64,000 bases of DNA, from the NCBI GenBank assembly GCA_035623075.1, contig DASPUC010000024.1, forward strand, positions 1 to 64,000. Direction: 5' to 3'. The notes under the pieces were generated by a model that ran no database searches, had not been told where the DNA came from, and was given only the letters and a program-made list of their open reading frames with translations. Position numbers and translations under genes: made by a program. Shown in pieces: positions 16,910 through 34,767 of the stretch (the first letter of the stretch is position 1; every line of letters starts with the position of its first letter). Source of the DNA: Nitrospiraceae bacterium (GTDB lineage: Bacteria > Nitrospirota > Nitrospiria > Nitrospirales > Nitrospiraceae).

Positions 16910-16934
16910 GGTGACGACTCCTTACCTCCCCTTG

Positions 16935-16955
16935 CCCCTCCTTAATAAGGAGGGG
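16935..16955. repeat. Family 1 palindrome, solo copy
   Basis: A 21-bp palindrome with arms CCCCTCCTTA / TAAGGAGGGG, embedded in CTCCCCTTG ... GTAGGGCAGGTC. It lies in the 56-base gap between the ALDH gene stop and the VOC gene start, so inside an operon. Further solo copies are at 21792-21812 and 22373-22393. Confidence 0.9.
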
Positions 16956-16965
16956 GTAGGGCAGG

Positions 16966-18492
16966 TCATTCCCCAAACTTGATTCCTTGAGCCAACGGTA
17001 ACTCCGTGCCCCAGTTGATCGTATTCGTCTGGCGCCGCATGTAGGCTTTCCAGGCATCTGAGCCGGCTTCCCGCCCGCCACCGGTTTCCTTCTCTCCACC
17101 GAAGGCCCCGCCGATTTCCGCTCCGGAGGTGCCGATGTTCACGTTGGCAATCCCGCAATCGCTCCCGGCTGCCGACAGGAAGCGCTCGCTTCTGCGAATA
17201 TCGGACGTAAAAATCGCGGAGGAAAGGCCCTGCGGGACATCGTTGTGTAGTGCGATGGCTTCCTCGATCGTATTGAACGTCATGATGTAGAGGATCGGCG
17301 CGAAGGTTTCTCGCTGAACGACGGGCCAGTGGTTCTGGGCCTGTACGAGCGTGGGCTCGACAAAATACCCCGACCGGTCCAAAACATGTCCGCCATACAA
17401 AATGGTACCGCCTTCTTTCGTGACTTCCTCGATGGCGGCACGGAAGGCCTCGACGGCGGCGTGATCGATCAGGGGCCCCATGAGCACGCCTGTCTCCAGC
17501 GGATTGCCAATGCGCACTTGCTTGTAGGCCGAAGCGAGTTTCGTCACCACCTCATCATATCGGGATTCATGGACCAACAGCCGCCTGGTCGTCGTGCAAC
17601 GCTGGCCGGCCGTTCCCACCGCGCCGAAGACGATCGCGCGAATGGCTAGGTTCAAGTCGGCACTTTCGTCCACGATGATGGCATTGTTGGCGCTAAGTTC
17701 CAGCAATGTGCGGCCTAACCGTTGCCCCACGACCGAGGCAACCTTCCGACCGACGGGAACGGACCCGGTAAATGAGATCAGCGGCAGCCGGCGGTCGTGC
17801 ACCATCGTCTCAGCGAGTGTGTTCTCCTCGGTGATCAAGAGCGAAAAGATGCCCCGGTAGCCCTGCTGCTCCATCACCTGGTTGCAGATGTGTTGGACCG
17901 CCACGGCACAGAGCGGCGCTTTCGGCGAGGGTTTCCAGACCACCGTATCGCCGGCAATCGCGGCGACGAAGGCATTCCAGGCCCAGACCGCCACAGGAAA
18001 ATTGAACGCCGTGATCACCCCAATTGGTCCCAACGGATGCCACTGCTCATACATCCGATGCTGCGGCCGTTCCGATTGCATCGTCTGGCCATACAACATG
18101 CGGGCTTGTCCGACCGCGAAGTCCGCCATATCGATCATTTCCTGGACTTCGCCGTCGCCCTCCGCTTTGATCTTGCCGACTTCGAGGGAGACCAGCGACC
18201 CGAGCAGGTCCTTCTTATCGCGCAACGCGACCCCGATCTGCCGGACCAGCTCCCCGCGCTGCGGCGCCGGCACCAGTCGCCAGCGCTCGAACGACTCGAT
18301 TGCTTGGCGAACGATGGACTCATAATCGTCGGACGAGCAGGGCTGCACCTGGGCAATCACGTCACCGGTCGCAGGATTCGCCGAGCCGAACGAGCGGCCG
18401 TCCCCCTTGGCCCACCACCCCACACCGGTGCTTCCGCCGGCGTTCACCGCACTCAAGCCCAATCCTTTCAGGATTTCCGACGTTCTATTCAC
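16966..18492 (-). CDS. amaB: ALDH7-type aldehyde dehydrogenase (aminoadipate-semialdehyde dehydrogenase)
   Basis: About 508 residues, NAD(P)-dependent. The catalytic Cys lies in [18 protein letters not shown] and the general-base region is [20 protein letters not shown], both very close to antiquitin (ALDH7A1). The opening [16 protein letters not shown] is also typical of ALDH7. [12 protein letters not shown] and [19 protein letters not shown] are the expected cofactor-domain segments. The start is the GTG at 18492, which overlaps the saccharopine dehydrogenase stop as GTGA and indicates coupling; a reading from 18660 would run antiparallel-free into that gene and is not supported. In the pathway it oxidises 2-aminoadipate-6-semialdehyde to 2-aminoadipate. 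Betaine-aldehyde-like activity is an alternative known for ALDH7 enzymes. Confidence 0.9.
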
Positions 18493-20800: not shown

Positions 20801-20924
20801 GCGTCCCATCTCCCCCTTTCCCCCCTTATTAAGGAGGGGTGAGGGGAGGTCGACTCTACCCCTCTCTGCCTCCCCTTACAAAGGGGAGGAAAATTTCGAG
20901 AGAGGCGGTGAGGGGGCGGGACGC
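20801..20924. mobile_element. Miniature (ends-only) derivative of the DUF559 element, copy C
   Basis: Contains the two terminal palindromes of the DUF559 element but no gene. The first, about 20821-20839, is CCCCCTTATTAAGGAGGGG; the second, 20869-20889, has arms CCTCCCCTT and AAGGGGAGG. Order and flanking bases match the plus strand of the intact copy at 23.99-24.43 kb (GGTCGA after the first, GGAGGAAAATT at the end of the second). Outer inverted ends GCGTCCC and GGGACGC bracket it. It lies in the divergent promoter space of two genes and looks like a MITE. Confidence 0.65.
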
Positions 20925-21778: not shown

Positions 21779-21791
21779 TGACCTCCCCTCG

Positions 21792-21812
21792 CCCCTCCTT
21801 ATTAAGGAGGGG
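21792..21812. repeat. Family 1 palindrome, solo copy
   Basis: Arms CCCCTCCTTA and TAAGGAGGGG, preceded by GACCTCCCCTCG, starting 14 bases after the ydcF-like stop codon and facing the end of the minus-strand hypothetical gene. It could terminate transcription in both directions, though no T-run is present. Confidence 0.9.
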
Positions 21813-21834
21813 TCAGGGATGATGACGAGCGGAT

Positions 21835-22205: not shown

Positions 22206-22372
22206 AGCTGACTCCCTGAGCGCATTATGCGGCTTTACATATGGGGGGAGCAAGAACCGGTCAGCACGATCGGCGCCAGGCCATGTGGTTGACCCGTTGA
22301 TCGATCGTTCTCTATGATGCCGATCGATGGCGGGCACGAAGTGCGAGGCGAGAGGCAAACCACGTCCCCTAG

Positions 22373-22393
22373 CCCCTCCTTAATAAGGAGGGG
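22373..22393. repeat. Family 1 palindrome, solo copy
   Basis: Arms CCCCTCCTTA and TAAGGAGGGG flanked by CGTCCCCTAG and GAAGGGGAGGTCACG. It ends 36 bases before the YkgJ-family start codon. A half arm of family 2 (GTGCGAGGCGAGAGGC) directly precedes it at about 22341-22357, so two repeat families abut here. Confidence 0.9.
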
Positions 22394-22428
22394 GAAGGGG
22401 AGGTCACGCACCCCTCGCCAAACCTTCT

Positions 22429-23933: not shown

Positions 23934-24455
23934 GCCATCAGCCATCAGCATTCAGCTGTCAGCCCTCAGCGGTCAGCTTTCAGCTCCACCCCTCCTTAAT
24001 AAGGAGGGGCTGGGGGGGTCGATCCTAACGTCAATCGCTTCTGCAGGTCTTCGAGTACACCGTCGAGATTCTTCATGATGTCATCGTTCCCATAACGAAC
24101 GACACTCAGACCGATGGACTGAAGATACCGGTCACGACGTTGATCTTTCTGGCTCTGTTCGGCATCGGCGTGACTGTCGCCGTCGACTTCAATGACAAGC
24201 GACCGTTCCGGACAATAGAAGTCCACGATGTACGGACCAATGCCATGTTGCCGGCGGAACTTGACCCCCTGCAGTTGCCGCGCCCGCAATCTCGACCACA
24301 GTCGCTTCTCAGGACCAGTCATATCCGAACGAAGTCGGCGCTTGAGATCGAGATGGCCTGCTTGTCCTCGTGCGGCTCTGGGCATCTTGCGCTACCCCTC
24401 CTATCCTCCCCTTACAAACGGGAGGAAAATTGAGAACGCTGATCGCTGACCGCTA
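23934..24455. mobile_element. Palindrome-bounded DUF559 nuclease element, copy A (intact)
   Basis: An about 0.5 kb unit. The outer edges are family 3 units (TCAGCCATCAGCATTCAGC on the left, GCTGATCGCTGACCGC on the right), giving roughly inverted ends. Next inward are a 21-bp family 1 palindrome at 23989-24009 (arms CCCCTCCTTA/TAAGGAGGGG) and a different one at 24405-24425 (CCTCCC ... GGGAGG). Between them is one gene, a DUF559 nuclease on the minus strand. The same order of parts recurs in copies B (29233-29473) and C (20801-20924) with internal deletions. The mobility mechanism is inferred; no target-site duplication was verified. Confidence 0.6.
23996..24385 (-). CDS. DUF559 (Vsr-like, PD-(D/E)XK) endonuclease domain protein
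   Basis: 129 residues. TGPEKRLWSRLRARQLQGVKF, RQHGIGPYIVDFYCPERSL and VIEVDGDSHADAEQ are the DUF559 signatures; the Asp in IVDF and the Glu-x-Asp in VIEVDGD are the probable metal-binding catalytic residues. RYGNDDIMKNLDGVLEDL closes the fold. Such small proteins are related to the very-short-patch-repair nuclease Vsr, but most have no known target. The C-terminus (TPPAPPY) and stop lie inside a family 1 palindrome, and a second palindrome lies 20 bases upstream of the start, so the gene and both repeats appear to move as one unit. Confidence 0.85.
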   Translation of the reverse strand: MPRAARGQAGHLDLKRRLRSDMTGPEKRLWSRLRARQLQGVKFRRQHGIGPYIVDFYCPERSLVIEVDGDSHADAEQSQKDQRRDRYLQSIGLSVVRYGNDDIMKNLDGVLEDLQKRLTLGSTPPAPPY

Positions 24456-24530: not shown

Positions 24531-24574
24531 GGCTCAGGCGAGAGTTCCTCTCGCCTCTCGCCCCTTGCGTGCCT
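24531..24574. repeat. Family 2 repeat, short copy next to the porin stop
   Basis: AGGCGAGAG TTC CTCTCGCCT forms a tight hairpin and is continued by CTCGCCCCTTGCGTGCC. It lies between the porin stop codon and its terminator. Confidence 0.5.
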
Positions 24575-26352: not shown

Positions 26353-26401
26353 AGCGTTCCTCCTGTGAATTGGATGATGGCCTTGCGGCGGGCGTGAGGT
26401 T

Positions 26402-26457
26402 CGGGGCGAGAGGCGAGAGGATCGACCCTCTTGCCTCGTGTCTCTGGCCTCTTGCCT
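26402..26457. repeat. Family 2 palindromic repeat
   Basis: Left arm CGGGGCGAGAGGCGAGAGG, loop ATCGA, right side CCCTCTTGCCTCGTG then CTCTGGCCTCTTGCC. It lies about 50 bases upstream of the porin start, inside its likely leader. Confidence 0.75.
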
Positions 26458-27088: not shown

Positions 27089-27165
27089 AGGCACAGAGAA
27101 AGGAGCGAGAGAGCTGCAAGCCGCCGTTCATGCCACTTGCCTCGTGCCTCGTGCCTTATGCCTAT
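27089..27165. repeat. Family 2 repeat, degenerate
   Basis: Left part GAGGCACAGAGAAAGGAGCG and right part CACTTGCCTCGTGCCTCGTG lie on either side of a loop with a GCAAGCCGCC core. It fills the gap between the two tatA-like genes. Confidence 0.5.
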
Positions 27166-27608: not shown

Positions 27609-29087
27609 CTAGTCGGAGGGACGAGACTGAATAAAACAGTGACAGTAATCCACAGGGCCTGGTGGAGCCGTGAGCGCCACTAAAAATGTCTGTGGATCGT
27701 ACCCGATGTCTTCGAGGTCGTGTGACGCGCGCGTGAGTTCCTCTTCCGTCAGGTAGGCAACGGTGTCCGGCACGCCGGTCGGCTTCAACGATCCGACGAG
27801 GGCCCGGAGCGTGTTGCGTTCTTCGCTCGGCATGTCTTCTCGAATCGGGAAATCCAATTTGCGCTCGTAGGGGCTTTCGTACGTTTGGTTCAAGGCTTGA
27901 ATCGTGTTGAGGATCAAGCGGTCCTGTTCCCAGGGCTCCAGCTTGGATCCGGCCGACGGATGGGTCGCCAATAAATCCATCAGGGTAACGACGTTGGTGT
28001 TCAGGCTGCGCCCGATGAACTCGCGCTGACTCTCGACCGTCACTGCTCCTGTGCCCAGCTGCCTCGCCGCGGATTCAATGAGGGCGAAGTTCACCATGAA
28101 ACTATACTGCCCGCCGAACTGGCCGTAACAGGGCTTTTCCGGGTCGTTGAGGACTTTCATGTCCGCTGTGCCGGCGTCGAAACTGCTCAGCCCCACTGCG
28201 TCCGGCGCCAGGATCCGTTTCGCTTCTTTGACTGTGGCACAGGCCCCGATATTCACCGGCACGAGGACTTGCTCGTCGATCTTCTTCAGAAATTCCGTGA
28301 TGGTCTTCCGGAACGGCACGTCCTTCCACTCGACCGTCCGATGTTCCTTTTCCCACACGAGGTCGTCGAAAAACGGCGGGAAGGCCTTGAGTGTCTCCGC
28401 ATCCCTGGCGTCAAAGGCACGCACGAAGGCCGACCAGTCATGAATCTTCGGGAGGAGCTTCTCGCTGATGTTGGGCCGGAGGAATTCCTCCTCGATCTCG
28501 CTGCCGTGGCGTGACATCAATTTTGTCGGCAGATCGTTCCAGAGTTCGTTGCAGATGATCCGGTCGACGGTCCCGTCGGCCACCGTCTCCAACCGATCGA
28601 CATGGGCCTGCAGAGTTTGGATGTGGTCACGATGGGAAGCCAGGTCCGGGCGGGACAGGATTGCTTCCAGCACCGCCGGCTCCCAATCGACCAACACGTA
28701 TTGAAGGCGTGGGTAGATCGTTCCGTCTTTATCCAGCGTTTTGAGGTGACTCAGAAAGCAGGCCGCCAGGTTGCCGTTGCCGGGTCCCCACTCGTGTACC
28801 ACTAGGCTAGAGGCGAGGGGCGAGGGGCGAGGGGTTGATTCTTGTGTGTTGCCTCTAGCCTCTCGCCTCGTGCCTCGTGCCCGATCGCGTTTGCCAACGC
28901 GATCGTAGTAATCCGCCGCGAGAGCGTGGGCGAGTCGATAGTCGGCCGAGGCAAACGTTTGATAAAATTTTCGGACTTGGTCGCCGCGGAATCGATAAAA
29001 GAGCCAATTGATATGGACTTGCCACTGATCGACCGGCTTATAGTCGCCGATGAGCTGGGGTAACGCGTCTGCGTCTTGCAACATCAT
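27609..29087 (-). CDS. MidA-like (COG1565) SAM-dependent methyltransferase with in-frame repeat insertion
   Basis: About 492 residues. The SAM-binding loop is VVHEWGPGNGNLAACFLSHL. It is followed by YVLVDWEPAVLEAIL and IICNELWNDLPTKL, the last equivalent to the NELLDALP-type motif of MidA/NDUFAF7 proteins. FGGQYSFMVNFALIE lies further on. MidA relatives methylate an arginine of a respiratory complex I subunit in mitochondria; the bacterial role is not established. Upstream of the SAM loop, codons at 28803-28883 come from a family 2 repeat and insert about 27 residues (REARGNTQESTPRPSPLAS and flanks). The start 29087 follows CAGGA; the earlier ATG at 29114 lies in another repeat. Confidence 0.72.
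   Translation of the reverse strand: MMLQDADALPQLIGDYKPVDQWQVHINWLFYRFRGDQVRKFYQTFASADYRLAHALAADYYDRVGKRDRARGTRREARGNTQESTPRPSPLASSLVVHEWGPGNGNLAACFLSHLKTLDKDGTIYPRLQYVLVDWEPAVLEAILSRPDLASHRDHIQTLQAHVDRLETVADGTVDRIICNELWNDLPTKLMSRHGSEIEEEFLRPNISEKLLPKIHDWSAFVRAFDARDAETLKAFPPFFDDLVWEKEHRTVEWKDVPFRKTITEFLKKIDEQVLVPVNIGACATVKEAKRILAPDAVGLSSFDAGTADMKVLNDPEKPCYGQFGGQYSFMVNFALIESAARQLGTGAVTVESQREFIGRSLNTNVVTLMDLLATHPSAGSKLEPWEQDRLILNTIQALNQTYESPYERKLDFPIREDMPSEERNTLRALVGSLKPTGVPDTVAYLTEEELTRASHDLEDIGYDPQTFLVALTAPPGPVDYCHCFIQSRPSD
28803..28883. repeat. Family 2 repeat inserted in frame in the methyltransferase gene
   Basis: Plus strand: GGCTAGAGGCGAGGGGCGAG, then GGGGCGAGGGGTTG, a loop ATTCTTGTGTG, then TTGCCTCTAGCCTCTCGCC and TCGTGCCTCGTGCC. 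It is a multiple of three within an intact gene and lies between the helical N-terminus and the SAM-binding loop. Its translation resembles that of the copy at 32707-32770. Confidence 0.85.
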
Positions 29088-29096
29088 CAAATCCTG

Positions 29097-29176
29097 GCGA
29101 AAGGCTAGGGGCAAGGGGCTAGGGGGTGAAGAATCCGTTGCTTTCCCACTTGCCTCTAGCCTCGCGCCTCTTGCCT
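29097..29176. repeat. Family 2 repeat upstream of the methyltransferase start
   Basis: GGCGAAAGGCTAGGGGCAAG then GGGCTAGGGGG, loop TGAAGAATCCGTTG, then CCCACTTGCCTCTAGCC and TCGCGCCTCTTGCC. It begins 10 bases upstream of the chosen start codon, so it forms the mRNA leader. Confidence 0.8.
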
Positions 29177-29232
29177 AATCCTTAAGGTTGCAAATTCTAA
29201 CAGATGGCTCAAAACAGTCGCAATGGGAGAAG

Positions 29233-29473
29233 AGCCGTCAGAGATTGGCCGTCAGCCTTCTTAGTACCTCCCCTTTGTAAGGGGAGGTAAAGGAGGGGTA
29301 GCGCAACATGCCCAGAGGCAATCGAATACAAGTTAGCCGCTCCGATCTCAAACAGCCGCTGAAAAATTCCATCCAGTACTTGAATTTCGGCAGACACGAA
29401 TCTCGGCGAAGACGACCTCCCCTAACCCCTCCTTACCAAGGAGGGGTGAAGAGAATGCTGACCGCTGACGGCT
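29233..29473. mobile_element. Deleted copy B of the DUF559 element
   Basis: Plus strand order: family 3 units (GCCGTCAG ... GGCCGTCAGCC), a palindrome at 29267-29287 (CCTCCCC TTTGTAA GGGGAGG), GGAGGGGTAGCGCAACATGC and a short gene remnant. Then come GACCTCCCCTAA, a 21-bp palindrome at 29426-29446 and GCTGACCGCTGACGGC. Every part aligns with copy A read on its minus strand (GGAGGGGTAGCGCAAGATGC before the nuclease start). About 280 bases of the nuclease gene are missing. Confidence 0.7.
29308..29420 (+). pseudogene. Remnant of a DUF559 nuclease gene
   Basis: Starts MPRGNRIQVSRSDLKQPLK, comparable to MPRAARGQAGHLDLKRRLR of the intact nuclease, with the same 20-base upstream context. The catalytic core is absent; after about 20 codons the sequence jumps to the 3' palindrome region. 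It has no plausible function as a protein. Confidence 0.6.
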
Positions 29474-29519
29474 TCTTCTCTTCCTTGACAGGCCGTCACA
29501 GGCGGTGTACGAGACAGTT

Positions 29520-30110
29520 ATGGTTTTCCCCCACACCATGCTCGGTCTGCGTCCCATTCTGCCCCATGCACTCCTCATCTGTGCGATGGCGGCGACCCAG
29601 GCCCTAGCGGAAGACCTCCCGATTGTTCCCAATGCTTCTATCAACGACTTCCAACTCCGTCAGGAGGACGTCAAGCAGTACGACTTCAACGCCCCACCGC
29701 AAGGGATGTTCCGGTCGATCACGATGTCGGAAGGGTTTGAAGAGGAATTGGGATTTCGCCGCACCCATGAAATTGTGCCGGTCAAACCGACCCAGCGATT
29801 CCGACCTGATGCTCCGGCCGTCTACATCGTGTTTGAGCTTCACCAACACTACCAGGCCTTTAAGGTCTTCGGCCGCTGCTTTTCCGAGGAGGTCGCGGGG
29901 CTCGAGCCCGGAACACCCGTTGGCGAAGATTCGATGTATATCGCGCTCGAAGATGAGACCGGCTATCTCAAACTCTTTCCGCCCCAGGGCGGCTGGAAGC
30001 CCGGCCGGTACAAAGTCGAGATCCACGCGGGCGAGCAGGTCAACGACATGAGCTTGATGGGGACGATGCGCTTCACGATCGCGGCTGGGGAGGCCGCGAT
30101 GGCGAAGTAG
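29520..30110 (+). CDS. Exported protein of unknown function
   Basis: About 196 residues with a signal peptide (LRPILPHALLICAMAATQALA). The mature part begins EDLPIVPNASINDFQL and contains RPDAPAVYIVFELHQHYQAF, FGRCFSEEVAGLEPG and a C-terminal beta-rich stretch GGWKPGRYKVEIHAGEQVND with TMRFTI. The layout suggests one immunoglobulin-like or jelly-roll periplasmic domain, like the C-terminal halves of some stress or adhesin-associated proteins. I do not recognise the family. The start was set at 29520, just before the signal peptide; ATG 29505 is open too. It stands alone between a decayed mobile element and a family 2 repeat. Confidence 0.7.
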   Translation: MVFPHTMLGLRPILPHALLICAMAATQALAEDLPIVPNASINDFQLRQEDVKQYDFNAPPQGMFRSITMSEGFEEELGFRRTHEIVPVKPTQRFRPDAPAVYIVFELHQHYQAFKVFGRCFSEEVAGLEPGTPVGEDSMYIALEDETGYLKLFPPQGGWKPGRYKVEIHAGEQVNDMSLMGTMRFTIAAGEAAMAK

Positions 30111-30124
30111 GCGCACGCAGGCCC

Positions 30125-30220
30125 GTGGCAAGGGGCGAGGGGCTAGTGGGCGGAGCACCGGATGTTTTCTCCCTCGCCTCTTGCCTGTTCACTCTGACCC
30201 CTTGCCTCGTGCCTCTCGCC
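30125..30220. repeat. Family 2 palindromic repeat
   Basis: GTGGCAAGGGGCGAGGGGC then TAGTGGGCGGAGCACCGG, loop ATGTTTTCT, then CCCTCGCCTCTTGCC and CCCCTTGCCTCGTGCC with CTCTCGCC. It lies in the gap before the glycosyltransferase gene. Confidence 0.75.
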
Positions 30221-30325
30221 ACGAGCCCGCGCTGGTGTCGCGTGGTTTGACGGTTTTCCTGACGTTCGGTAGAATGCGTCCGTGACGTTTCGGCTTGCCT
30301 GCTCGTTCAGGAACCTCTGTTCTCC

Positions 30326-31081
30326 ATGACCGTGCCATCCCGTCCATGGGCTTCCGTCGTCATCCCCATCAAGGATGAACGAGACAACCTGGTGCCGCTG
30401 ACCGAACAACTGCTGAAGGTCATGGGTGCTCGTGAAGAATCGCGCGCAGCGGCGTTCGAAATTCTCTATGTGGACGATGGGAGCTCCGATGGCAGCAGCG
30501 ACGTGCTGGACCGGCTCGCCGCTCAAAATCCCGAAGTCAAAGTCCTCCACTTCGATCGGAACTACGGCCAATCCGCTGCCTTCGACGCGGGTTTCCGGCA
30601 CTCCACTGGGGCTGCCGTGATCACGATGGACGGAGATTTGCAGAACGACCCGGCTGACATCGCGACATTGTTGCCTCTGCTCCAAACACATGACCTGGTT
30701 TGTGGTTGGCGCATTAATCGACATGACAACCTGGTCCGGAAAATCTCTTCGCGCGTGGCCAACGCCGTGCGAAGCGCTGTCACGGGTGATCGCGTCCGTG
30801 ACACTGGGTGCTCGTTGAAAATCTTCCGCCGGGCGGTCGTGGATCGACTCCAATTGTTCAACGGGATGCACCGATTTTTCCCCGCGCTCGCGCTCATGCA
30901 CGGATTCACTGTGACGGAAGTTCCGGTACGCCACTATCCACGGGCGCACGGTGTGTCGAAGTACGGTGTGGGCAATCGGTTGTTCAAGGGAATTTACGAT
31001 TTGATTGCAGTCCGGTGGATGCAGGCGAGAGTATTGCGGTATGGTATTAGAAATGGCGAGGGGCGAGGGGCGAGGGGCTAG
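30326..31081 (+). CDS. Family 2 glycosyltransferase, DPM1/ArnC-like
   Basis: 251 residues, GT-A fold. ASVVIPIKDERDNLVPL opens the nucleotide-sugar domain; LYVDDGSSDGSSDVL and VITMDGDLQNDPADI hold the Asp residues that bind the sugar nucleotide and metal. FFPALALMHGFTVTEVPVRH and HGVSKYGVGNRLFKGIYDL are typical of polyprenyl-phosphate glycosyltransferases. The C-terminal membrane helices of ArnC-type enzymes are missing. It should load a sugar on undecaprenyl phosphate for the ArnT-like enzyme encoded nearby. The last eight residues (GEGRGARG) are encoded by the left arm of the family 2 element, which also supplies the stop. Confidence 0.87.
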   Translation: MTVPSRPWASVVIPIKDERDNLVPLTEQLLKVMGAREESRAAAFEILYVDDGSSDGSSDVLDRLAAQNPEVKVLHFDRNYGQSAAFDAGFRHSTGAAVITMDGDLQNDPADIATLLPLLQTHDLVCGWRINRHDNLVRKISSRVANAVRSAVTGDRVRDTGCSLKIFRRAVVDRLQLFNGMHRFFPALALMHGFTVTEVPVRHYPRAHGVSKYGVGNRLFKGIYDLIAVRWMQARVLRYGIRNGEGRGARG

Positions 31082-31473
31082 AGGGTGGGACACAAGGGCT
31101 TCCAGGATCTCACTGTCTGGCGGAAAGCGAAGGATCTTGCTGTGATGATTTACAGAATGTCCAACGGTGATCTGGAAGGGTTGGATTTCGGACTTAAAAA
31201 CCAAATGCGGCGCAGTACGGTCAGCGTTGCGAGCAACTTAGCCGAAGGAGATGAACGAGATACCGACAGGGAATCGATCAGGTATTTCTATATCGCAAAA
31301 GGTTCGGTCGCGGAATTGCGCACACAGCTTCAAATCGCCCATGAATCAGGTTATCTGAATAAGACAATCTATGAGACGTTCGAAAAAGAATACGACACTC
31401 TGGGGAAAAGAATTGGCAAGCTCATTCAGGCGAGGCGTAAATCCACGCGCCACTAGCCCCTCGCCTCGCGCCT
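31058..31473. mobile_element. Family 2 element carrying a four-helix-bundle gene
   Basis: The left end GCGAGGGGCGAGGGGCGAGG followed by GGCTAGAGGG and the right end CACTAGCCCCTCGCCTCGCG followed by CC are inverted copies of the family 2 arm. Between them lies a single complete gene. Other family 2 copies have the same arms but only a 5-20 base loop, so this may be the parent form. The mobility is inferred. Confidence 0.6.
31085..31456 (+). CDS. Four-helix-bundle protein, S23/IVP (bAvd-like) family
   Basis: 123 residues, all-helical and charged. FQDLTVWRKAKDLAVMIYRM, QMRRSTVSVASNLAEGDER, RYFYIAKGSVAELRTQLQIA and YETFEKEYDTLGKRIGKLIQ are the signature helices. This family is named for proteins encoded in 23S rRNA intervening sequences and is related to accessory proteins of diversity-generating retroelements; members bind nucleic acids. 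Its cellular role is unclear. Start and stop each lie within a few bases of inverted repeat arms. It sits between the GT2 gene and the LAB_N gene and interrupts an otherwise logical lipid-glycan operon, which supports insertion. Confidence 0.88.
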   Translation: MGHKGFQDLTVWRKAKDLAVMIYRMSNGDLEGLDFGLKNQMRRSTVSVASNLAEGDERDTDRESIRYFYIAKGSVAELRTQLQIAHESGYLNKTIYETFEKEYDTLGKRIGKLIQARRKSTRH

Positions 31474-31477
31474 ATCT

Positions 31478-31780
31478 ATGACAACAACAGAAATCATCTG
31501 GGTGGGCATCGGTTTTCTGGGGCAAGGCCTCTTCTTTGGCCGGTGGATCATCCAGTGGGTCGCATCGGAGCGGAAGGCTGAAAGCCGCGTGCCGGTGGCG
31601 TTTTGGTACATGAGTCTGATCGGCGGACTCATTACGCTCGCCTATGCGATCTACCGGCGAGACCCTGTGTTCATCGCGGGTCAGAGCATCGGCGCGATCG
31701 TTTACATCCGCAATCTCATCCTTATTGCTCGAACAAGTCAGGCCAAAAACATGGCGAGCCCTTCGTCTCTCCGGGCATGA
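31478..31780 (+). CDS. LAB_N domain membrane protein (lipid-A-disaccharide synthase N-terminal-like)
   Basis: 100 residues with three membrane helices. WVGIGFLGQGLFFGRWIIQWVASE, RVPVAFWYMSLIGGLITLAY and VFIAGQSIGAIVYIRNLILI match the LAB_N family, found fused to LpxB or alone in lipid A and teichoic-acid-like modification loci. Stand-alone LAB_N proteins usually lie between a GT2 and a GT39/ArnT-type gene, as here, and may help flip or present the polyprenyl-linked sugar. It starts only 22 bases past the four-helix-bundle gene, right after the repeat arm. No obvious ribosome site is visible. Confidence 0.85.
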   Translation: MTTTEIIWVGIGFLGQGLFFGRWIIQWVASERKAESRVPVAFWYMSLIGGLITLAYAIYRRDPVFIAGQSIGAIVYIRNLILIARTSQAKNMASPSSLRA

Positions 31781-31836
31781 CGTTCGACAGATGGGCAAAC
31801 AGGTTTGATCCTTCCATTCGCACCTAACCGTCTCGT

Positions 31837-33606
31837 ATGACTCTGGCTCGCACCCCAAACCAGGCTCTGCTCATCCTTGCACTCCTCGCGCTGTCGGGAT
31901 TGTTGTTTTTCGTGGGACTCGGCGACATGGGCTTGACGGATCGGGACGAAGGTCGAAACGCCGAAGCTGGTCGAGAAATGTTTGAGAGTGGAGACCGCCT
32001 GACCCCCACATTCAACTACGAACTACGCGTCGCGAAGCCCGTGTTTCTCTATTGGTTGATGGATGTGTCTTATCGGCTGTTCGGCGTTGATGAATTCGCC
32101 GCCCGATTTCCTTCGGCGTTGTTTGGAGTTGGTCTGATCCTCCTGCAGTATTGCTTTCTGGCGTATGTGCAGGACCGAACGGTCGCTCTCTTCGGCGCGC
32201 TGATGCTCCTGCTCAACATCGAGATTCTCGGGCTCGGACGCATGGCGTTGACCGACAGTGTCCTGATCTTCTTCACCACCGCCTCGCTCTACGGTTTTTG
32301 GCTGGGTCTTCACGGAGAGGGGTCGGCGCGCCGATGGATCTGGGTCTTTTACATCGGGATGGCACTGGCGACGCTGACGAAGGGACCGGTCGGATTTGTC
32401 GTGCCCTTGATCGCTACCTCGCTTTATCTCATCTGGACCCGCCGCTGGCAGGAGTATTGGCGGAACGGCGTCCCTCTCGCAGGCACACTCGTGTTCCTCT
32501 TGCTCGCCCTGCCCTGGTATGTCGCGATGTTCATGGTTCACGGGGATGCCTACGCGTCCGGCGCGAGAGCCAACACGATCGGCCGGTTCTTGAGCCCGAT
32601 GGAAGGGCACCACTTCACGATCTTCTTTTATATCCCGGTCCTGCTCTTTGGTTTCTTCCCCTGGAGTGGATTGCTGCCGGTCGCTATGTTTCACGCGTGG
32701 AAGACCTGGCGCGAGGCGAGAGGTACCAAACAAGATCTTACCCCTCGCCTCTCGCCCCTCGCCTCTCGCCTTCCGGCTTCACGGGAATTGGAATGGTTTG
32801 CCGCCTTGTGGGTTGTCGGGATCTTTATCTTTTTTACAGCGTCTTCGACCAGGCTTCCCCACTATATCGGCCCGTTGTTTCCCGCCGCCGCCATCCTCAC
32901 GGCCTGCTTCTGGTCGCGATGCCTTCGTGATCCGACCACACCAGGAATTCGCGCCTCCATTCACATCACCACCGGGCTTGGGTATCTCCTTGCCATCAGC
33001 TTCGCGAGCCTTCCGACGCTGTATGCGAAGTTCTCCTCAAAACTGGTCAAGGAGTTTCCCCTGGCCGGACAGATCGACGTCGGCAGTGTCCCCTATGTGA
33101 TCGCCGTGGTGTTGCTCATCGGAATGGCGTTCGTGAGTTATTTAGGCGTGAATGAGGAACGTCGAGGCGGAGCCTTCTGGGCTGCGGGCGCGTCGTTTGC
33201 CTGTATGGCCCTGATCGTCATCGTGATAGCGATTCCAGGGCTCAATCAATATTTCATTGCCCCGCCGCAGGTCCTCGCCTACGCGGCCGGCGTGAACCTT
33301 GGTCCATCGGACCGTCTGATCGCCTTCGGCATGACAAGGCCGTCCACCGCGTTTTATGCCCAGCGCAAGGTGGTGTATTTTGAACAGAATGAACAAGCGG
33401 CCCTCGGCACCTCGCTCGCGCAACCGGGGCGCACGATGATTCTTCTTCCCGAATCGTTTTTGTCGAGTCTCCCCCGTGAGGCACAAAGTTATCAACCGAT
33501 TCTGAAGCGATTCGGCTACGTCCTGTTGTCCAATGAAGGGATGGTAAAGATTCCCGAAGGGAGTATGCCGCCCCTACCGCCGCCCATTCCTGGGCATGGG
33601 CGGTGA
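31837..33606 (+). CDS. ArnT/PMT-like membrane glycosyltransferase with in-frame repeat insertion
   Basis: 589 residues with about twelve membrane helices. The first periplasmic loop has DRDEGRNAEAGREMFESGD and RVAKPVFLYWLMDVSYRLFG, the acidic-residue motif and following helix of ArnT/PMT enzymes. ArnT moves 4-amino-arabinose from undecaprenyl phosphate to lipid A; the donor here is unknown. TLTKGPVGFVVP and FPWSGLLPVAMFHAW are further family patterns. Residues about 291-312 (WREARGTKQDL ... SPLASRL) come from a family 2 repeat inserted in frame in a loop between two helices. It forms a functional set with the GT2 and LAB_N genes upstream and PAP2 downstream (opposite strand). Confidence 0.85.
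   Translation: MTLARTPNQALLILALLALSGLLFFVGLGDMGLTDRDEGRNAEAGREMFESGDRLTPTFNYELRVAKPVFLYWLMDVSYRLFGVDEFAARFPSALFGVGLILLQYCFLAYVQDRTVALFGALMLLLNIEILGLGRMALTDSVLIFFTTASLYGFWLGLHGEGSARRWIWVFYIGMALATLTKGPVGFVVPLIATSLYLIWTRRWQEYWRNGVPLAGTLVFLLLALPWYVAMFMVHGDAYASGARANTIGRFLSPMEGHHFTIFFYIPVLLFGFFPWSGLLPVAMFHAWKTWREARGTKQDLTPRLSPLASRLPASRELEWFAALWVVGIFIFFTASSTRLPHYIGPLFPAAAILTACFWSRCLRDPTTPGIRASIHITTGLGYLLAISFASLPTLYAKFSSKLVKEFPLAGQIDVGSVPYVIAVVLLIGMAFVSYLGVNEERRGGAFWAAGASFACMALIVIVIAIPGLNQYFIAPPQVLAYAAGVNLGPSDRLIAFGMTRPSTAFYAQRKVVYFEQNEQAALGTSLAQPGRTMILLPESFLSSLPREAQSYQPILKRFGYVLLSNEGMVKIPEGSMPPLPPPIPGHGR
32707..32770. repeat. Family 2 repeat inserted in frame in the ArnT-like gene
   Basis: GCGCGAGGCGAGAGGTA, loop CCAAACAAGATCT, then TACCCCTCGCCTCTCGCC and CCTCGCCTCTCGCC. 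The frame stays open through it. Translation gives REARGTKQDLTPRLSPLAS, close to REARGNTQESTPRPSPLAS in the methyltransferase. Confidence 0.85.
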
Positions 33607-33624: not shown

Positions 33625-34767
33625 TCACTGTAAGTGAATCGGAAAAGCGCCAGGGCCTTGCCACAGAACAAACAGCGCCAGCAATATCCCGACTACCCCC
33701 ACACCTTCGCGCATCAATCGCTGCATACGTGGAATTTCTCGTGCTGACTCGAGAGCATCCTGTGACCGGACCCAGAAGGCCGTGCCGACACAAGCAACCG
33801 CGGCCGTGACTAGCCATGATCGGCTCATTAGGGCGAGACCGAGCGTAAGGACGATGAGTGCCGCGCGGCTGACGTTCGTTTCCGATTCCTCCACTCGGCT
33901 TATCCACCAACTCACGCGAAACCATGTACCGAGGAGAACGAGCAACAATCCAGCACCCACCATCGCAATCGTCTCCCATCCGATCACAAGAGGATGTGAA
34001 ACGATCCACACAAGAGCAAAGACATAGACCATTCCGATCGCGGACGTGAAGCAGCCGTCAGCCAATGATTGACGCCATTCCCGCAATGGCCTGGCGAACA
34101 GCGACCCGCTCAACACCCCGAAGACAATTCCACCAGCGACATCCGTAGGGAAGTGAGCCCCGCGCAGCACCCGGCTCAGTCCGACAAATCCTGCAATCGC
34201 AAAGAACAACACTGCGCCTGCGGGGAATCGCCTGGCTAAGACGGTCGCAACGGCAAATGAAGCGGTTGCATGGCCGGACGGGAAGGAATCGAGCCCTGCT
34301 TCCATGGAAGGCATCGAGAACCAGCCGCCGCTATGGACGAGTCTCGGACGAGGCCGCCCGATGAGATGTTTGAACACATTGGTGAGAAGTCCCGCCAACC
34401 CGTGGGCCAGTAAGGTCTGCCAGCCAGCTGCGATGAGCAGTGGCCGTCCCGCTCCCCATCCGATTGCCAACAACAAGACGCTCAAGAGGACGAGTTGCTC
34501 TCCGTCTCCGATCCAATCGCCGGCCCAGCTGGTCGTCGCCATCCAGGGAATGAGAATTTGATCTCGAGCCCAGACATAATCGACCGTCACGGACCGCATG
34601 TACCGAGCGATCGGTAGGTCGAGCTGAAACAGCCCCCAGAAGACGAACACGAGAGCGATGGAAGAACAGGCTAGGGGTATGCGGCTCGAGGCTAGAGGAA
34701 AGACAACAGATTCTTCACCGTCATGCCTCTTGCCCCATGCCTCTCGCCCCTTGCCCGACTCCGTCAT
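33625..34767 (-). CDS. PAP2-family membrane phosphatase
   Basis: About 380 residues with many membrane helices. The PAP2 catalytic motifs are all present: KHLIGRPRP, then SFPSGHATASFA, then RVLRGAHFPTDVAGG. It would dephosphorylate a lipid phosphate such as undecaprenyl pyrophosphate or phosphatidylglycerol phosphate. A long C-terminal part (residues about 215-380) adds more helices of unknown role. The ATG at 34767 overlaps the TolB-like stop as ATGA, so translation is coupled. The cytoplasmic N-terminus (ESGKGREAWGKRHDGEE ... PLASSRIPLA) is encoded by a family 2 repeat at 34668-34757. Confidence 0.87.
   Translation of the reverse strand: MTESGKGREAWGKRHDGEESVVFPLASSRIPLACSSIALVFVFWGLFQLDLPIARYMRSVTVDYVWARDQILIPWMATTSWAGDWIGDGEQLVLLSVLLLAIGWGAGRPLLIAAGWQTLLAHGLAGLLTNVFKHLIGRPRPRLVHSGGWFSMPSMEAGLDSFPSGHATASFAVATVLARRFPAGAVLFFAIAGFVGLSRVLRGAHFPTDVAGGIVFGVLSGSLFARPLREWRQSLADGCFTSAIGMVYVFALVWIVSHPLVIGWETIAMVGAGLLLVLLGTWFRVSWWISRVEESETNVSRAALIVLTLGLALMSRSWLVTAAVACVGTAFWVRSQDALESAREIPRMQRLMREGVGVVGILLALFVLWQGPGAFPIHLQ
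34668..34757. repeat. Family 2 repeat forming the 5' end of the PAP2 gene
   Basis: CAGGCTAGGGGTATGCGG and CTCGAGGCTAGAGGAAAG, loop ACAACAGATTCTTCACCGTC, then ATGCCTCTTGCC, CCATGCCTCTCGCC and CCTTGCCC. It encodes most of the first 35 residues of the PAP2 protein on the minus strand, before the first membrane helix. Confidence 0.75.

Follow-up and report, generated by a model that had tools for sequence, protein, structure and literature searches.

In-frame heptad palindromes of a Nitrospiraceae genome as probable solo copies of an element encoding an intervening-sequence protein

How a palindromic repeat came to lie in frame within unrelated protein genes is the question raised by a stretch of 64,000 nucleotides (the window) from a Nitrospiraceae bacterium (contig DASPUC010000024.1). 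Judged from the sequence, the palindromes within genes are most probably (probability roughly 0.8) solo, non-autonomous copies of a mobile element composed of inverted arms of 7-nt units with a gene for an intervening-sequence protein (IVP) in the loop. Shared arms, a full element, the same architecture in many phyla, sites in empty, filled and solo states, clustering near cognate IVP genes and in-frame insertions were all observed.

Palindromes in the window and the peptides that they spell

The features of the window are collated in Table 1. The initial annotation had described repeats that keep the frame of a methyltransferase (MTase) gene and of an ArnT-like gene, and had pointed out the likeness of the added peptides; both palindromes were found in frame, and both quoted peptides are exact. 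The third copy, read as encoding the N-terminus of a PAP2 protein, is likewise a palindrome and is open to upstream TTG/ATG starts; its translation is uncertain, because the conserved PAP2 domain does not start until residue 119 of the protein. Inverted repeats exceed chance in most copies (DNA-fold z of -3.9 for MTase and -2.5 for ArnT), the PAP2 copy and the copy with the longer loop being near chance. The 7-nt period, the IVP gene enclosed in the same arms and many more in-gene copies had been overlooked.

Table 1. Heptad palindromes, the complete IVP element and host genes in the window.
Feature	Position	Strand	Evidence or remark
Complete IVP heptad-palindrome element: G-rich 5' arm, IVP gene in loop, C-rich 3' arm	31055..31472	+	
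5' arm, GGCGAGG heptads	31055..31085	+	
IVP gene, 123 aa, four-helix-bundle 23S rRNA intervening-sequence protein family	31085..31456	+	PF05635, E=1.5e-31
3' arm, GCCTCNN/GCCCCTN heptads	31442..31472	+	
Solo palindrome in frame in MTase (Methyltransf_28) gene	28798..28881	-	peptide RARGTRREARGNTQESTPRPSPLASS, also given as RREARGNTQESTPRPSPLASS
Host gene: putative SAM-dependent methyltransferase	27609..29114	-	PF02636
Solo palindrome in frame in ArnT-like gene	about 32707..32777	+	peptide REARGTKQDLTPRLSPLASR, also given as REARGTKQDLTPRLSPLAS
Host gene: ArnT/PMT-like glycosyltransferase	31837..33606	+	PF02366
Solo palindrome, possible N-terminus of PAP2 protein, translation uncertain	34669..34762	-	fold z = -1.0
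Solo palindrome, intergenic	23195..23270		fold z = -3.95
Solo palindrome upstream of 24580-26610 gene	26391..26456		
Solo palindrome, intergenic	26686..26768		fold z = -5.0
Solo palindrome overlapping region just upstream of likely MTase start	29096..29175		
Solo palindrome, intergenic, longer loop	30120..30227		fold z = -1.3 for 30115-30230
Remnant, single heptad arm	24546..24569		heptad pattern
Remnant, single heptad arm	27132..27162		heptad pattern

The palindrome arms consist of tandem 7-nt units (GGCNAGN/GCCTCNN). Since 7 leaves a remainder of 1 on division by 3, an exact array gives the same seven-residue repeat in every frame, and a heptad array would add a (GERREAR)n- or (PLASRLS)n-like peptide to the host protein. 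The peptides in MTase and ArnT are alike because the array reads alike in all frames, so that adaptation at the peptide level is not needed. Adaptation of the palindrome to coding was rejected, as open frames (mean 2.76 of six) were not above those of shuffled sequences (2.82), with 3.1 for random genomic sequence.

The IVP element and its probable solo copies

The complete element lies between a GT2 glycosyltransferase gene and a lipid-A-biosynthesis N-like gene. Its sole ORF is the IVP gene, the protein product of which matches PDB 2gsc (Xanthomonas XCC0516, E=7.8e-16), and its inverted repeats (31055-31078 and 31449-31472) are 83-87% complementary. Solo palindromes share its arms; the view of the palindromes as an isolated family had thus to be given up, solo relatives of a PF05635-encoding element being present in the same window. 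The source genome (G000) contains four PF05635 genes, each between inverted short-unit arrays that differ in sequence.

The same layout was found in other bacteria. Of 78 IVP genes sampled from many phyla, 70 had inverted arms outside the ORF that exceeded a threshold set at the 95th percentile of 358 displaced controls from the same loci; the other eight genes of this cross-phylum sample had no detectable arms. That threshold was exceeded by 29 of 30 IVP genes in the family of a Luteimonas genome (L233), in which the arms are GGGATTC, GGGACTC and GGGAATC. Loops with other genes would be missed, because the surveyed loci were found through IVP genes. Upstream of the IVP ORFs, lag-7 identity was 0.417 versus 0.257 at displaced positions; the signal at other lags was slight or absent, apart from a small one at 8. 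The best arm period was 7 in 87 of 105 arm pairs (8 in 15 and 9 in 3), and the 5' arm was G-rich in 87 of 92. The arm sequence is almost free (65 distinct units in 80 loci), and heptad likeness tracks IVP likeness only where identity exceeds about 60% (Mantel rho 0.10, 3 of 2000 permutations); strict recognition of one arm sequence by the IVP was rejected on both grounds.

Pattern searches and retrieved stretches gave at least 45 such palindromes in the source genome, most of them intergenic, and solo copies far outnumber IVP genes. When GCCTCTHGCCYCTNGCC was searched with up to two mismatches, 230 matches were obtained genome-wide versus 29 for the reversed control. In-frame insertions were present in at least five protein genes, those for Lhr helicase (four copies), MetG and PDH-E2 in addition to the MTase and ArnT-like genes. 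Seven solo palindromes of one heptad family (A) lay within 10 kb of the cognate IVP gene versus 0.27 expected (P=1.5e-8, Poisson test assuming uniform insertion), as did three of a second family (B) versus 0.12 expected; none was found within 10 kb of a non-cognate IVP gene in this genome.

The IVP could be a mere passenger, the palindromes being moved by an unrelated transposase or by host replication or repair. PF05635 has no known catalytic residues, and the IVP has no known catalytic or transposase activity; the much commoner solo palindromes could in principle have another mover, and heptads follow the IVP sequence only among close relatives. Passenger status is nevertheless rather unlikely, as one protein family occupies most heptad loops tested across phyla (at loci found through IVP genes) and solo copies cluster near the cognate IVP.

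A retro-element, in which the IVP would take the role of Avd and the palindrome RNA would be copied into targets by a reverse transcriptase, is less probable still. Avd, a component of diversity-generating retroelements, is a four-helix bundle like the IVP, and target-primed copying would be consistent with short target duplications and with the addition of G-rich sequence to the two 3' ends at the target. An origin of this type was rejected because no match to the reverse transcriptase family RVT_1 (PF00078) was found in the source genome, which also sets the elements apart from diversity-generating retroelements and retrotransposons. Mismatched arm pairs had no excess of G-U wobbles over A-C (155 vs 178, P=0.23), so that there is no sign of selection on RNA pairing, and selection of the hairpin at the RNA level was rejected as well.

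Empty, filled and solo sites

The proposal of mobile palindromic insertions in unrelated proteins, of the kind known from Rickettsia, was upheld by homologues: more distant relatives have MTase and ArnT-like genes without the segment, and Lhr copies 2 and 4 are missing from a 79%-identical homologue. The insertion is not confined to this genome, as palindromes, whether of the same heptad family or of another, occupy the same linkers in relatives. The MTase segment is absent or different in homologues, and the ArnT linker holds a palindrome of the same family in G011 and one of the GGCGATG family in G004, and is short in distant relatives. In-gene palindromes share the family of the resident IVP's arms in three genomes (G000, G004, G008), as does the ArnT copy of G011; the MTase copy of G011 belongs to a heptad family different from that of the adjacent IVP, and in G005, which lacks an IVP at the syntenic place, a GCGAGG copy lies within a gene.

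Some of the insertions within genes are old (Lhr copy 1 occurs in three genera), as would be expected of conserved regulatory hairpins or useful added peptides kept for their function. Such retention is improbable in view of the wide variation in family and length of the insert at one and the same linker, and of the lack of an open-frame excess or RNA-pairing signal.

The gene junction that holds the complete element is empty in four relatives (G009, G005, G001 and G014) and filled in three (G011, G004 and G002). A cyanobacterial plasmid site of Trichormus and Scytonema contains arms and IVP with a 4-bp TAAT duplication, is empty in Nostoc linckia (98.3% identity) and is occupied in Brasilonema by a solo palindrome whose heptads are of the same family. 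In Nostoc sp. ATCC 53789, differently armed elements lie at separate junctions of one operon on two plasmids, each of which supplies the other's empty site. A target duplication could be read at only two sites, as TAAT at one and as CTA (3 bp; alternatively TTCTA, 5 bp) at the other, and two further sites were not clean.

Local simple-sequence expansion by polymerase slippage, without a mobile element, has been proposed in print for abundant bacterial heptanucleotide repeats (reported in PMC4679880). Slippage may change the unit number; it does not make inverted arms around a gene or clean empty and filled sites with a 4-bp duplication, nor does it place unlike elements at two junctions of a single operon, and as the origin of the palindromes it is very unlikely, being contradicted for IVP-bearing copies by arms, empty sites and duplication. 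REP/REPIN-type palindromes moved by a RAYT (Y1) transposase, although also short, numerous and mostly intergenic, are the least probable source and were rejected, because the arms are 7-nt tandem arrays enclosing an IVP gene and the Y1 transposase family PF01797 had no match in the 99.93%-complete source genome, five control genomes being positive.

Proposed mechanism and known systems

Solo copies of the IVP element would arise either when the internal IVP gene is lost or when the arms move by themselves, and would spread mostly near the source element. A copy within a gene would survive only if it landed in a linker that tolerates it, had a length that is a multiple of three and was free of stop codons in the reading frame used. 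The IVP, probably an oligomeric nucleic-acid-binding protein, might assist movement by working on the G-rich/C-rich hairpin of 7-nt period as DNA, with cutting and joining possibly performed by host or other enzymes. A wider and doubtful proposal is that these elements form a mobile class of their own, widespread among bacteria, which would conserve the 7-nt step and G-rich polarity of the arms but not their sequence. The two 3' ends at a target break would be extended repeatedly, in the manner of telomeres, to produce the arms, the IVP would serve as scaffold, and most bacterial heptanucleotide repeats would be footprints of this class. If the palindromes are indeed copies of an IVP element, one cause would account for the role of orphan 'four helix bundle / S23' genes outside rRNA, for the dominance of 7-nt tandem repeats among the long repeats of many bacterial genomes and for the entry of palindromic peptides into proteins outside Rickettsia, and a new problem of mobility would be posed, with a fixed repeat period and nearly free sequence in the absence of a recognised transposase.

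MITEs are similar in being short non-autonomous palindromes that share terminal inverted repeats with a putative parent (here the IVP element) and in their possible target duplications; they differ in that the IVP parent encodes no recognised transposase. The nearly free arm sequence with a fixed 7-nt period distinguishes the palindromes from both MITEs and REPINs, and the source genome has no RAYT.

Cyanobacterial STRR are also 7-nt repeats. Heptanucleotide repeats have been described from Xanthomonas ((GGGANTN)n) and Nostoc (GGGGA(C/T)T; PMC4692102), Beggiatoaceae (TAACTGA; PMC4679880) and Geobacter (GGGACCG; PMC2700814). These too are tandem 7-nt units at many sites, some in inverted pairs and some within genes, and the Xanthomonas-type unit is matched by the IVP arms of genomes in the family of L233 (Luteimonas). 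They were presented as unexplained or regulatory repeats, in contrast with the arms of an element described here; 'four helix' is unmentioned in all three papers, and S23 in two of them.

The intervening sequences (IVSs) of 23S rRNA in Leptospira and Coxiella, in which an S23/IVP ORF lies between terminal inverted repeats, have been called selfish and suspected to be remnants of transposition (PMC4990558). A PF05635 protein is encoded between inverted repeats here as well; unlike the IVSs, the window element and the examined plasmid elements lie between protein genes and not in a 23S rRNA helix, from which IVSs are excised by RNase III, and the elements have heptad arms and many solo copies, some inside proteins. 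Rickettsia palindromic elements (RPEs; Ogata et al. 2000, 2002), as far as they are outlined in PMC10969869, are in-frame palindromic repeats of several families that add peptides to unrelated genes, and are reported there from Rickettsia only. The palindromes in MTase, ArnT, Lhr (four), MetG and PDH-E2 resemble them in frame, in the number of families and in the added peptides; by comparison with that outline alone, they differ in their 7-nt tandem units, which do not figure in it, in their IVP-coding relative in the same genome and in their occurrence in many phyla. Judged against the open-access literature and general knowledge, RPEs and rRNA IVSs are the nearest precedents, each of which fits the elements in part.

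Arms, IVP gene and occupancy of sites

In the window, tandem heptads (7-nt units) of family A (GGCGAGAGGCGAGAGG... at the 5' side, ...CCTCTCGCCTCTCGCC at the 3' side) form inverted arms that enclose the gene of a 123-residue 23S rRNA intervening-sequence protein (IVP, PF05635; closest solved relative by sequence, PDB 2gsc). The closest IVPs in the contig scan were found in two Nitrospira records (L157, L158), which points to a Nitrospira-like host. The element is flanked by a GT2 glycosyltransferase gene, whose last residues are also encoded by the 5' arm, and by a lipid-A-biosynthesis N-like gene. This junction was without the element in four comparison genomes (G009, G005, G001 and G014) and filled in three. 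The arms in G011 are those of the window element (IVP 75% identical), the arms in G004 are of GGCGATG type (IVP 56% identical), and G002 has different arms (IVP 41% identical). In the host genome (G000; 3.39 Mb, 58 contigs, 99.93% complete), three further strong IVP genes have the arm units CGTTAAN, GCKTATG and the 9-nt CTGGTTYRT; genome-wide arrays were present for two of these units.

Cyanobacterial site T was empty in Nostoc linckia (98.3% identity; AAAAAGTAATTAACAAAT) and read AAAAAGTAAT-arm-IVP-arm-TAATTAACAAAT in Trichormus, with TAAT duplicated (4 bp). At the same site, Brasilonema carries a solo palindrome (inverted arms without the IVP gene) of the Trichormus heptad family, and in Nostoc C052 the element is truncated. 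An operon shared by two plasmids of Nostoc sp. ATCC 53789 has different-armed elements at two junctions, each empty in the other plasmid; CTA is duplicated in the flanks of one junction. The TraM/hypothetical site was filled in two plasmids and without IVP in three, one of them with nested arrays. The whole unit is therefore gained and lost, and arms can occupy a site without the IVP gene. In pNsp_c, the TraM site holds heptad arrays from at least two families, nested and with no IVP gene, which looks like the entry of one element into another. Plasmid pNsp_b carries two adjoining short CDS, each with a four helix bundle annotation; they probably represent an IVP gene that has been broken or duplicated.

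Positions of repeats and elements in the window and in fetched loci (L-numbers)
Feature	Position	Context	Observation
IVP element, family A	31055-31472		
5' arm of IVP element	31055-31081	end of GT2 gene	codes for NGEGRGARG
AGGAG/GAGG (Shine-Dalgarno-like)	31055-31085	directly ahead of IVP start	also in cyanobacterial L273, L276
Solo palindrome, methyltransferase (PF02636)	28798-28881	gene 27609-29114, minus strand	in frame
Solo palindrome, ArnT-like (PF02366)	about 32707-32777	gene 31837-33606	in frame
PAP2 palindrome	34669-34762	PAP2 domain starts only at residue 119	
Second palindromic family (ACCTCCCCTNGCCCCTCCTTAATAAGGAGGGG...)	16924-16968, 20808-20852, 21781-21825, 22362-22406, 23978-24022, 29415-29459	window	six copies, non-heptad
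Third repeat family (core CTCCCCTTACAAAGGGGAGG)	20856-20895, 24392-24431, 29254-29293	window	three copies
Lhr-type helicase	L097 1460-3746 / L270 5010-9485	G000	four in-frame palindromes
Nested arrays, pNsp_c	L286 570-880	TraM site	
Adjoining CDS, pNsp_b	L278 371-1049		

Generality and local spread

An IVP alignment scan of genome contigs yielded 80 loci from many phyla (including Bacteroidota, Planctomycetota, Proteobacteria, Cyanobacteriota, Acidobacteria, Chloroflexi, Verrucomicrobia and CPR), all collected through the IVP protein and not through heptad palindromes. When fixed windows round tblastn or HMM matches were scored, inverted arms exceeded the 95th percentile of controls (358 displaced windows, same loci) at 70 of 78 loci. 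Lag-7 identity 5' of the IVP ORF was 0.417 (displaced, 0.257), with a small lag-8 signal (0.301; displaced, 0.249) and little or none at other lags; the best arm period was 7 in 87, 8 in 15 and 9 in 3 of 105. Periods of 8 nt were seen at L160 (arms of about 145 nt, built of GGTGAGTC units), L161, L162, L183 and L212, and 9-nt units in L004. Arm units are almost free in sequence (65 different ones among the 80 loci), being alike only between IVPs of at least about 60% identity. Of 150 genomes from the family to which the L233 genome (Luteimonas cucumeris) belongs, 64 had IVP genes; arms were present at 29 of 30 loci. Cyanobacteria accounted for 18 of 19 plasmid records with IVP genes, and 33 IMG/VR viral contigs (L237-L269) also carry such genes.

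Between 23 and 35 kb of the window, family A comprises eight solo palindromes (DNA-fold z-scores of window palindromes, -5.0 to -1.0) and at least two single arms. By pattern search, and not by full annotation, the unit gave 230 matches in G000 against 29 for the reversed pattern; among the matches listed, family A occurred with at most one mismatch at 45 places besides the IVP element. Within 10 kb of their cognate IVP lay seven family A solo copies (0.27 expected, P=1.5e-8) and three of family B (0.12 expected, P=2.9e-4), and family C was weakly clustered (two copies within 20 kb, P=0.014), by a Poisson test that assumes uniform insertion; in G000, solo copies of all families were more than 10 kb away from any non-cognate IVP. 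The L215 genome (AGTTCCG arms) gave 98 matches to its own unit pattern and 1 to the reversed one, and this pattern gave at most 4 matches in 15 of 17 other genomes; of the two exceptions, the L178 genome has a closely related unit (AGTTGCG), and G054 gave 28 matches. The second window family has a MITE-like look, and sequences similar to the third occur in relatives' loci L150 and L156.

Taken together, the sequence comparisons show a discrete unit of arms and IVP gene, with empty or filled sites, solo derivatives and local cognate spread. The IVP would act on its own hairpin during movement, and solo copies would be non-autonomous derivatives. Movement driven by a reverse transcriptase or RAYT in G000 is counted against by searches that found neither there, and RNA-level hairpin pairing by the lack of an excess of G-U over A-C type mismatches (155 vs 178). 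The 5' arm holds more G than C at 87 of 92 IVP loci (P=2e-20; displaced windows, 87:59). Extension with G-rich units at both target 3' ends would give such arms on both strands; the G-rich arm could also serve as the ribosome-binding site ahead of the IVP start, in view of its Shine-Dalgarno-like sequence in the window and in two cyanobacterial loci.

Copies within genes

The initial annotation had described a palindromic repeat inserted in frame into unrelated genes. Both the existence and the kept frame of the methyltransferase and ArnT-like copies were borne out, and the quoted peptides matched exactly; the PAP2 palindrome is present, but may lie within the protein N-terminus, as had been claimed, or just upstream of it. 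Further in-frame copies in G000 were found in an Lhr-type helicase (four), in linkers of MetG (L076, ahead of the C-terminal tRNA-binding domain) and PDH-E2 (L078), and in an uncharacterised 552-residue frame (L089). Relative to the 79%-identical G005 protein, Lhr copies 2 and 4 each add about 17-18 residues as clean insertions; copy 1, also present in G005 and G002 (two further genera), is therefore older, and falls inside a gap separating aligned stretches of PDB 7lhl. The MetG insert separates two domains that each align to PDB 9shc. The methyltransferase and ArnT segments are variable linkers, short in distant relatives, but filled in several genera and thus not peculiar to this genome. 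The linkers hold family A in G011 (ArnT), the GGCGATG/GGCAATAG family in G004 (both genes) and G008 (methyltransferase), and another sequence in G002 (both); they were therefore filled repeatedly or rewritten.

Because 7 mod 3 is 1, an exact heptad array spells one 7-residue repeat in every frame, for family A (GERREAR)n and (PLASRLS)n. Like peptides in unrelated proteins follow from this, and peptide selection is not needed. Palindromes were not unusually open to translation (2.76 open frames of 6; shuffled, 2.82; random genomic, 3.1), which fits chance survival within genes rather than adaptation to coding.

Relation to known systems

In the open-access literature searched (without subscription papers and preprints), no passage was found that connects heptad repeats with PF05635. 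The heptad palindromes resemble Rickettsia palindromic elements in their in-frame insertion (PMC10969869), and the presence of Geobacter heptanucleotide elements within genes is already on record (PMC2700814). Arm units of the L233 family, often GGGATTC, GGGACTC or GGGAATC, match (GGGANTN)n repeats that were published as unexplained in Xanthomonas (PMC4692102). The IVP element is neither a RAYT-linked REP nor RT-encoding. It shares its protein family with the 23S rRNA intervening sequences, earlier proposed to be transposon remnants whose ORF has a role in mobility (PMC4990558), but differs from them in location.
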